Shown: in pieces, positions 20,634 to 23,207 of the stretch
Numbering within the stretch: position 1 is the first letter of the stretch
Layout of the letters: each line of letters begins with the position of its first letter
Assembly: GCA_029012225.1 (NCBI GenBank)
Contig: JAQXLR010000179.1
Span: 1-32,351, forward strand
DNA from: Clostridiales bacterium
GTDB lineage: Bacteria > Bacillota > Clostridia > Lachnospirales > Lachnospiraceae
Length of the DNA stretch: 32,351 nucleotides
Reading direction: 5' to 3'
Position numbers and translations under genes: made by a program
The notes under the pieces: generated by a model
Databases searched by the model: none
Told to the model about the DNA's origin: nothing
Seen by the model: the letters and a program-made list of their open reading frames with translations, nothing else

Positions 20634-22659
20634 CTGGTACTCCTCTCATCAATCCATATCTGCTTTCTACTCTCATTACTCTTGCCAGCTCATCCGGTGT
20701 CGATATTGGCTGGTTGACATTTACTATCTGTTGGAACCCTCCAAAGCCACTGGTACTTCCTCCTGTTCTTGCTCCGTTCATATTTGCCTGCACGGTAGAC
20801 ATACTCGCATTGATGTTCCGTGTCATCGTATCGGGATTCATCAAGTCCTCTGCTCCTTCTTCAAATCCAGCAACACACATCTCGGCAAGATATTTAAACT
20901 TCCTTGAAGGCGAATTGATTCCAAGTGCTTCCTTTGCAGCCTTAAACAAATTGCTTGCAAGATTTCTGACTTGTTCTACAAGATAATTCCAACCTTCCGT
21001 AATTCCATTGTAGATTCCATCAAGAATATTTTTGCCAATGTTTCCCCAGTCCTGCGATTTAAATGAATTGACGAGGCTTAGAAATAATTTTGGCACAGCA
21101 GTGAGCAAGCGAAACGTATTTGCAACCAAATATGCCGCCAATTTTGCAAGAATTTCGATGGACGCAGCCGTCAGTTTCGGTACATTGGCGATAAGAGTGG
21201 CTACAAGCCGACCCATTAGTGTGGGAGCTGCTTCAAGCACCCTTGGTATTGTATCAAGCAATCCGTCGAGCAATGCCATAAATAAATCGATTCCGGCATC
21301 TATGATATTGCCCAACGTATCCGGCTCTGTCAGCGCCATTGCTAACGATAAAACCGCCTCTACACCTGCAGAAAGCAAGTCCGGTATCATGTCCCTCAAG
21401 CCCTGCGTAAGCTGTACAAGGAGCTCACTGCCGCCGTTAAGTACAGAATCCGCATTATCCGTTATACCGGATAAAAGATTCATGACGATATCATAGGCGA
21501 TTGAGCCAAGAGTTGGGAGCATCTCAACAATCCCGCCGACCAGAATCGATAATATCTCCCCTCCGGATTCCATCAGCTGTGGCAAATTCTCTTTCAGACC
21601 TTTCGCAATCGAAAGAATCATGTCTGTGCCGGACTTAACCAAATCAGGTAAAATATCGCTGATGATGGCCGGAACTCTCTCCATAATGACCGGGAGTAGC
21701 TTTTCAACCAATTCCCCTATGCCGCCTAGCGTGGTTTCAATCCTTGGCAAAAGATTGTCAGCCGCAGTCACGGCACTTTCTACAAAATTATTGACAAGAG
21801 TATCAAAGTCTTGCGTGTCGTCAGCAATTCCGACAACGAGATTCGCCGATGCTGCCTTCATGGAATTTAGGCTTCCTGTGATGGTGGTACTTGCTTCTTT
21901 TGCTGTCGTTCCGGCAATGCCCATGCTTTCTTGCATTATCGAAATGGCGTTGACAATATTCCCAAATGACAGACTTGATTCATCTACTGTTATGCCGAGT
22001 TTTTCTTGTATGTCAGTCATTTTGGCAGCGTCAGCAATCAGCCTTTGCATTTCTTCCTTGGTTCCGCCGTACCCAAGCTTTAGGTTATCGAGCATCGTAT
22101 AGTTCTGTTTCGCAAAACCCTGATAAGCGTTCTGTATGGATTCCATGCTTGTTCCCATTTTGTTCGCATTATCAGCCATATCAATGATAGCTCTGTCCGC
22201 ATACTCAGCGGCAAGTGCTGTATCTCCACCAAGAGATTGAATCAATGACGCAGAGAAGCCTGTGACCGTCTCCATGTACTCATTTGCAGATAATCCGGCC
22301 GTCTTATATGCTTTGTTGGCATTATCAAGCGCGAGCGACTGCGCTTCCATAAGCGCATTGTACTCATCCTGCACAGCAGATACTGATTTTCCAACTTTAT
22401 CAGCGTATTCTTGCACAGAATCCCCACCAGCTCCAAAAAGCGTCTCAATACCACCAACTAGCTGCTCGTAGTCTGCATAGCTTTTTACCGCAGCTGTTCC
22501 AAGAGCCGCTACACCAGTAGCCGCTGCGCCCACTCCGGCCGCAAATATTTTGAGCCCTCCAGCAGCCACGCCTCCCAAGGTGCTACCAAGTGCCTTTACT
22601 CCACTTGTAAAGCCTTTACTATCCAGTTTTGTATCAAAAATTAAACTTCCGTCAGCCCT
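20617..22659 (-). CDS. Tail tape measure protein; extended to an apparent AGG start codon at 22657-22659
   Basis: ORF (653 aa from TTG at 22578) is TMP-like. In-frame extension gives (M)ADGSLIFDTKLDSKGFTSGVKALGSTLGGVAAGGLKIFAAG, a typical TMP N-terminus, with GGAGG 9 nt upstream of AGG. Confidence 0.85.
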   Translation of the reverse strand, partial: RADGSLIFDTKLDSKGFTSGVKALGSTLGGVAAGGLKIFAAGVGAAATGVAALGTAAVKSYADYEQLVGGIETLFGAGGDSVQEYADKVGKSVSAVQDEYNALMEAQSLALDNANKAYKTAGLSANEYMETVTGFSASLIQSLGGDTALAAEYADRAIIDMADNANKMGTSMESIQNAYQGFAKQNYTMLDNLKLGYGGTKEEMQRLIADAAKMTDIQEKLGITVDESSLSFGNIVNAISIMQESMGIAGTTAKEASTTITGSLNSMKAASANLVVGIADDTQDFDTLVNNFVESAVTAADNLLPRIETTLGGIGELVEKLLPVIMERVPAIISDILPDLVKSGTDMILSIAKGLKENLPQLMESGGEILSILVGGIVEMLPTLGSIAYDIVMNLLSGITDNADSVLNGGSELLVQLTQGLRDMIPDLLSAGVEAVLSLAMALTEPDTLGNIIDAGIDLFMALLDGLLDTIPRVLEAAPTLMGRLVATLIANVPKLTAASIEILAKLAAYLVANTFRLLTAVPKLFLSLVNSFKSQDWGNIGKNILDGIYNGITEGWNYLVEQVRNLASNLFKAAKEALGINSPSRKFKYLAEMCVAGFEEGAEDLMNPDTMTRNINASMSTVQANMNGARTGGSTSGFGGFQQIVNVNQPISTPDELARVMRVESRYGLMRGVPVVQNS

Positions 22660-22664
22660 TTTAT

Positions 22665-23207
22665 TTATCCTCCGAATATCTTGTTAAACTCATCCAACTC
22701 TGCACGTTCTTCCTCGCTCATCGGAGCCTCTATCTCCCATGCACGACGAAGCTCCTCATATGGGTCTTTTTTATCATTCGATTTCTCGTAGCATCGGTAT
22801 CCCATAACCTCACGTAGCTTTGTGCTCTCATTCAAGCCTCCCAGAAGTGCCAAAAATTTATGCCAGTGCAATTCCTCTACTTCGCACAAATCAATTCCAT
22901 ATTGCCCAAGGAATGCCGCATAAATTAGGTCCGAATCAATCTCATAATCAAGCACAACCACATTTCTATGTGAAATCGGACGTGGAAGCGGAGATTCCGG
23001 TCTACTAAAGGCAAAAAGTCCTGCCAAATCGCAATAGGTAGGCATTTCATTCTTAAACAGATACGACACATCTATCGTCTCTCCATGCCTTAGCCTACTC
23101 ACGGCAATCTCAAAACGCATCCACAGTCGGAAATCCGTGTATACAGAATAGGCTCTACCGCCTACCACAACGGTATTAGGTAAAGCCCTCTTTGTTAGAT
23201 TCATCAT
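22665..23207 (-). CDS. Phage Gp15-family protein (tail assembly chaperone)
   Basis: 180 aa immediately upstream of the tape measure; MMNLTKRALPNTVVVGGRAYSVYTDFRLWMRFE. Confidence 0.8.
   Translation of the reverse strand: MMNLTKRALPNTVVVGGRAYSVYTDFRLWMRFEIAVSRLRHGETIDVSYLFKNEMPTYCDLAGLFAFSRPESPLPRPISHRNVVVLDYEIDSDLIYAAFLGQYGIDLCEVEELHWHKFLALLGGLNESTKLREVMGYRCYEKSNDKKDPYEELRRAWEIEAPMSEEERAELDEFNKIFGG

Follow-up and report, generated by a model that had tools for sequence, protein, structure and literature searches.

The choice of start codon in bacteria is taken to depend on a single initiator tRNA, with the anticodon CAU, and rare natural non-AUG starts, such as the AUU of infC, are read by this ordinary fMet-tRNA with a mismatch. 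Initiator tRNAs with altered anticodons have been engineered, pairing CUA with UAG and, in vitro, CUU with AAG, UAC with GUA and GUG with CAC (PMC13232202). tRNAs encoded by phages, including tRNA-fMet, are known to supply codons or to allow escape from host defences that cut tRNAs (PMC10264068), and in uncultivated Bacilli AGG is read as Met genome-wide by a tRNA derived from tRNA-Arg (PMC8629427). The 32,351-nucleotide contig JAQXLR010000179.1 of a Clostridiales bacterium (the window, that is, the whole stretch of DNA analysed) carries the structural operon of a prophage of gut Clostridia, in which the tail tape measure protein gene has AGG at the place of its start codon. The AGG itself, the coding constraint that follows it, a tRNA gene belonging to that operon, the agreement between anticodon and start codon across phages, and a mismatch between tRNA bases 1 and 72 (1×72) can all be read directly from the DNA. 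Judging from such sequence comparisons, it is very probable that a phage-encoded initiator tRNA with an altered anticodon starts the tape measure protein at the matched non-standard codon.

The tape measure gene and its AGG codon

The gene was identified by a tblastn match to annotated tape measure genes, and its surroundings are those of a siphophage, with a Gp15-type gene upstream and an SPP1_Dit gene downstream. The original prediction held that AGG stands where ATG would be, before an N-terminus typical of tape measure proteins and normally preceded by Met. Both statements were borne out by homologues with a normal start, which have MADGSL or MSDGRL at the AGG position (P0061, P0074, P0085, P0114), and by the conservation of AGG in related phages. 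No in-frame ATG, GTG or TTG occurs between AGG and the upstream in-frame stop, eight codons 5′, and the spacing of 9 nt between GGAGG and AGG equals that at the ATG gene at 23587. The first canonical in-frame start 3′ of AGG is, as predicted, a TTG at +27 codons, followed by a GTG at +30; the accompanying claim that this TTG lacks a Shine-Dalgarno sequence was slightly overstated, as weak purine-rich stretches precede both the TTG and the GTG. Within codons 2-12 after AGG, the variable sites at codon positions 1, 2 and 3 number 4, 1 and 8, and codon differences are synonymous in 104 cases and non-synonymous in 51. This variation, dominated by third positions, indicates that the stretch 5′ of the TTG is translated.

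Related phages came from scans of GTDB genomes and viral contigs, for which the tape measure protein and an N-terminal DNA pattern were the queries; the probable major capsid protein also served to locate them. The AGG start is shared by L083, L084, L162/L194, L163, L164, L165, L168, L169, L175, L178, L190, L314 and others, amounting to at least 10 phage types besides the window, from independent assemblies. This recurrence excludes chance or a base-call error at 22658, and the prediction that AGG is genuine thus stands. The Shine-Dalgarno spacing in the AGG leaders, taken from phages other than L164, is mostly 7-9 nt, reaching 11 in L165, and in several phages an in-frame stop lies immediately 5′ of AGG, which rules out an N-terminal extension in those cases. 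The first canonical downstream start lies between +20 and +69 codons and differs in each phage, so that a mature protein beginning at the downstream TTG, which the original prediction named as a refuting result, is unlikely. Database proteins of the family carry ragged downstream start annotations (P0002, P0004 and others), as would be expected if gene callers cannot recognise the true start.

An out-of-frame ATG or GTG was also observed at position −4 of the unusual start in L084, L163, L164, L165, L169, L172 and L393, and in six of these seven phages it opens a three-codon frame closing at TGA. Such a codon might serve as a decoy, diverting host fMet initiation from the tape measure frame.

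A phage tRNA matched to the start codon

ARAGORN found a single tRNA in the window, at 27415-27343 on the minus strand, and named it tRNA-Arg(CCU); Rfam agrees, with 37.9 bits. The gene is sited between those of minor capsid protein 2 and the scaffold protein, 4.7 kb 5′ of AGG. The original prediction did not contain this explanatory element, an initiator-like tRNA of the operon whose anticodon fits AGG. A tRNA-CCU occurs in every AGG-start phage with sufficient upstream DNA, about 4.6-4.8 kb upstream (the window, L083, L084, L163, L194, L195, L197-L200, L314, L368, L372 and L389), and in G143 the tRNA-CCU and the tape measure gene were found on two contigs of one genome. A covariance-model search of family- and class-wide genomes gave scores above 100 bits only in G000, G143 and G301, and the weaker matches inspected in Clostridia, at about 70-80 bits, proved to be initiator tRNAs of the host. 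A DNA search of a phage collection with tRNAs of the L191 type and of the window type returned partial matches of 72-84% identity, many of them annotated as tRNAs, and none covering at least 80% of the query. The tRNAs of L111, L117 and L137 were considered as relatives and rejected, being ordinary elongator tRNA-Trp accompanied by an ATG tape measure start. Immediately 5′ of the tRNA, at 27420-27440 of the window, lies a stable hairpin that occupies the same place in relatives and resembles an intrinsic terminator in L194, L195, L204 and L210.

The anticodon follows the start codon across the related phages. By phage type, the pairs of start codon and anticodon are AGG/CCU (11), AGC/GCU (1), ATA/UAU (1), GTG/CAU (1) and ATG/CAU (4), so that all 18 tRNA-bearing types are matched, which none of 200,000 shuffles equalled. 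The AGC start with a GCU anticodon belongs to L176/L196, whereas the ATA start belongs to L206, where the UAU tRNA is placed elsewhere, 5′ of the terminase gene, and encodes CCA. The ATG-start phages L204, L210, L297 and L364/L395 have a CAU tRNA at the usual site, and L181/L182, with a GTG start, have a tRNA with CAU(U). Decayed remnants of the tRNA were detected in L173 (ATG) and L208 (GTG), and no tRNA was present in L145, L179, L201 (TTG) and L202, where the tape measure starts are among ATG, GTG and TTG. The leaders of close relatives differ almost solely at the start, with GGAGGTGACAGCG-ATG-GCT in L476 versus GGAGGTGACAGCA-AGG-GCT in L314 and L464. In a tree of ten shared structural proteins, the AGG clade of the window adjoins an ATG/CAU phage, L297 with ATG/CAU falls within a rumen AGG/CCU clade that has AGC/GCU as its sister, and ATA/UAU stands apart; this placement implies that joint changes of codon and anticodon arose several times. 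Every AGG or ATA start has A as the base immediately 5′ of it, where the ATG/CAU relatives have G or T; at position 37, beside the anticodon, the tRNAs with a changed anticodon mostly have U (CCUU, GCUU, UAUU) and the ATG/CAU relatives A or G. Judging from these patterns, codon recognition may reach four base pairs, with position 37 pairing to the −1 base.

The tRNAs of L181 (4981-5118) and L182 (2660-2797) are initiator-like and have an eight-base anticodon loop, CACAUUCG, without U33.

The initiator character of these tRNAs was assessed in an alignment of 13 sequences, in which the helices covary, with 94.6% of cells paired and 67 double changes. Bases 1 and 72 are unpaired in 12 of the 13 (C·A, C·U or G·A, the last in the window), whereas pairing in the rest of the acceptor stem is kept or covaries; the paired 1:72 expected of an elongator tRNA-Arg(CCU) is not found. 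G2:C71 and C3:G70, present in 12 and in all 13 tRNAs respectively, both occur in the window, and together with the 1×72 mismatch they constitute the formylation signal of bacterial initiator tRNAs (PMC7949028). Among the host tRNAs compared, fMet was the closest to the tRNAs of L191, L196, L198, L204, L206, L210 and L297 (0.71-0.84). The window tRNA belongs to a subtype with a short D loop, and it is linked to the others by L361, whose window-type body has CAU, C1×A72 and the full GGG/CCC triplet, and by L195, a window-type body with C1×A72. The initiator nature of this subtype is supported by the 1×72 mismatch, the bridging L361 and L195, the position of the gene and the codon match. The CAU anticodon of tRNA-fMet occurs in the sisters L204, L210, L297 and L361 and is replaced by CCU in the window, the reason for which the window tRNA is classed as initiator-like and not as tRNA-fMet. 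Several of these tRNAs, by the features of their sequences, clearly appear to be initiator tRNAs with an altered anticodon.

As to the amino acid carried, A20, C35 and U36 are Arg identity elements, and G2:C71, C3:G70, A73 and the lack of A20 are the features that mark a tRNA-CCU as Met-type (PMC8629427). The window tRNA has C35 and U36, and A20 is absent in all window-type tRNAs; the L191 type has A20, as does host fMet. A first guess is that the likeliest cargo of the window tRNA would be (formyl-)Met, because G2:C71, C3:G70 and A73 are present and the Arg element A20 is absent, with Arg a possible second, given C35 and U36.

Alternative explanations and proposed mechanism

Several observations weigh against the interpretation of the window tRNA as an altered initiator. 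MetRS normally requires A35. The tRNA lacks A11:U24, which is present in L191, L204, L206 and L210, and has U11:A24 instead; its pairs 29-31:39-41 are G:C, G·U and C:G, not three G:C pairs; relatives vary at pairs 29 and 31, and 12 of 13 have G:C as the middle pair, 30:40. Its Rfam score is low, and its identity to host tRNA-Gly(CCC) is 0.67 versus 0.65 to fMet. The 18 matched pairs are not independent, because the phages share ancestry, and collapsing them to 8 clades gives a probability of about 0.001 that all would match by chance; AGC/GCU and ATA/UAU are each represented by one phage type, and the odd loop without U33 belongs to the L181 tRNA, from a phage with a GTG start.

The most serious competitor, itself improbable, sees in the tRNA a normal elongator tRNA-Arg(CCU) supplying the AGG codons of late genes, with the tape measure gene starting weakly at AGG by means of host fMet-tRNA. 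The ARAGORN label, the 49 AGG codons inside late genes and the lack of a second tRNA-CCU among the G000 tRNAs examined are in its favour, but anticodons GCU, UAU and CAU would be useless as an AGG supply and follow the start codon, the 1×72 mismatch is an initiator mark, and window-type tRNAs lack A20, an Arg element. Moreover, background initiation in vitro is reported to be low at GC-rich codons and highest at codons whose second base is U (PMC13232202). That initiation occurs at the out-of-frame ATG or GTG at −4, or in the upstream gene, and is followed by a frameshift into the tape measure gene is less plausible still: the window, L083, L162, L168, L175, L178, L190, L314 and L176 all lack the −4 codon found in the seven phages listed above, neither a slippery site nor a direction of shift is held in common, and the matched tRNA would be left unexplained. 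Hardly any weight can be given to a start at the downstream TTG or GTG, with at least the first 26 codons untranslated. Gene callers do place starts there, yet the position wanders among relatives, and the stretch after AGG is constrained as protein and equals the N-terminus of ATG-start homologues.

The remaining explanations are extremely unlikely. Reassignment of AGG to Met in the phage or its host would recall the Bacilli clade of PMC8629427, in which a tRNA-CCU with G2:C71, C3:G70 and A73 and no A20 was likewise reported. Internal AGG codons, nevertheless, align with R 95 times, with K 37 times and with M 3 times, a result that refutes reassignment at internal codons, and the other structural genes of the window that were checked start with ATG, GTG or TTG. 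Since internal AGG is Arg, the general code is unchanged and initiation alone is affected. A sequencing error or a decaying prophage might be suspected in a window from a fragmented metagenome bin of 249 contigs, but the operon is intact, coding constraint is maintained, and the same codon in many independent assemblies rules out an error.

According to the preferred interpretation, an initiator tRNA encoded by the prophage, with the anticodon CCU, would pair with AGG after the Shine-Dalgarno sequence and initiate the tape measure protein. The tRNA would likely be excised from the late transcript, aminoacylated and formylated by host enzymes, brought into the P site on AGG with IF2, and kept out of elongation. 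The system probably derives by single-step changes from a phage initiator tRNA of the AUG/CAU kind, through AGG/CCU to AGC/GCU, with a separate single-step route from AUG/CAU to AUA/UAU. It is likely that these phages hold a natural private start code, in which the anticodon of a dedicated initiator tRNA and the start codon of a single gene have evolved together repeatedly. The benefit is the most speculative part: tape measure synthesis may be tied to the late tRNA of the same operon and hence be delayed or insulated. The insulation might be against initiation by the host or against nucleases that cleave initiator tRNAs, such as VapC, cited in PMC10264068. A neutral ratchet, by which the phage became dependent on the tRNA after an anticodon mutation, would look identical.

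Neighbouring features and comparison with known systems

The features of the locus are collected in the table below. The minor capsid protein 2 gene is the first long same-strand open reading frame (ORF) 5′ of the tRNA, with a short ORF (27763-27972) intervening. The conserved hairpin 3′ of the tRNA was considered as part of the tRNA system and rejected, as it also occurs in the tRNA-less ATG phages L145 and L179; being kept in phages without the tRNA, it is assigned to the leader of the scaffold gene. A lysine riboswitch (7147-7321), a TPP riboswitch (13481-13587) and an SpF59-type RNA motif (2033-2084) lie on the host side of the window.

Table 1. Position and description of features of the prophage operon in the window.
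Feature	Position	Strand	Remarks
Tail tape measure protein gene	20617..22659	−	680-codon ORF; ADGSLIFDTKLD directly after AGG
AGG, proposed tape measure start codon	22657..22659	−	In frame with the ORF ending at 20617
Gp15 family protein (PF06854)	22665..23207	−	Immediately 5′ of tape measure gene
GGAGG Shine-Dalgarno sequence	22669..22673	−	9 nt 5′ of AGG; −1 base is A
Probable major capsid protein	25691..26689	−	From position and conservation; no Pfam match
Capsid scaffolding protein (PF06810)	26702..27292	−	First gene 3′ of tRNA
Conserved hairpin ATCGCA-GAAAG-TGCGAT	27319..27335	−	Between tRNA and scaffold gene; GAAAG loop, covarying stem
Phage tRNA, anticodon CCU	27344..27414	−	G·A 1×72 mismatch, G2:C71, C3:G70, A73; proposed AGG-reading initiator tRNA
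Anticodon CCU	27380..27382	−	Pairs with AGG
Phage minor capsid protein 2 (PF06152)	27965..29584	−	C-terminal Ntox50 (bacterial toxin 50) domain

No earlier report of a natural initiator tRNA with an altered anticodon matched to a start codon was found in the open-licence literature. A second initiator, serving a single gene and bearing a different anticodon, seems to have arisen in these phages on more than one occasion. If this is true, initiation can become orthogonal in nature, ready parts exist for engineered initiation, the wrong gene-caller starts of many tape measure genes from gut metagenomes are accounted for, and the essential features of initiator tRNAs can be put to test.

The phage system resembles the infC AUU in its unusual start codon, and differs from it in having a dedicated tRNA with the cognate anticodon. 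Other phage-encoded tRNAs, tRNA-fMet included, are alike in being carried by a phage, but the gene described here lies inside the structural operon, with CAU in the ATG relatives, and the roles known for phage tRNAs involve no match to a special start codon. The Bacilli that read AGG as Met share with it a tRNA-CCU, Met-type identity elements and the lack of A20; in the phage, internal AGG remains Arg and the tRNA is initiator-like. The closest likeness is to the engineered initiators, in which an initiator body given a new anticodon starts at the matched non-AUG codon beside the fMet pathway (PMC13232202). These are man-made, whereas the phage case is natural, phage-encoded and specific to one gene, and has changed several times in evolution.
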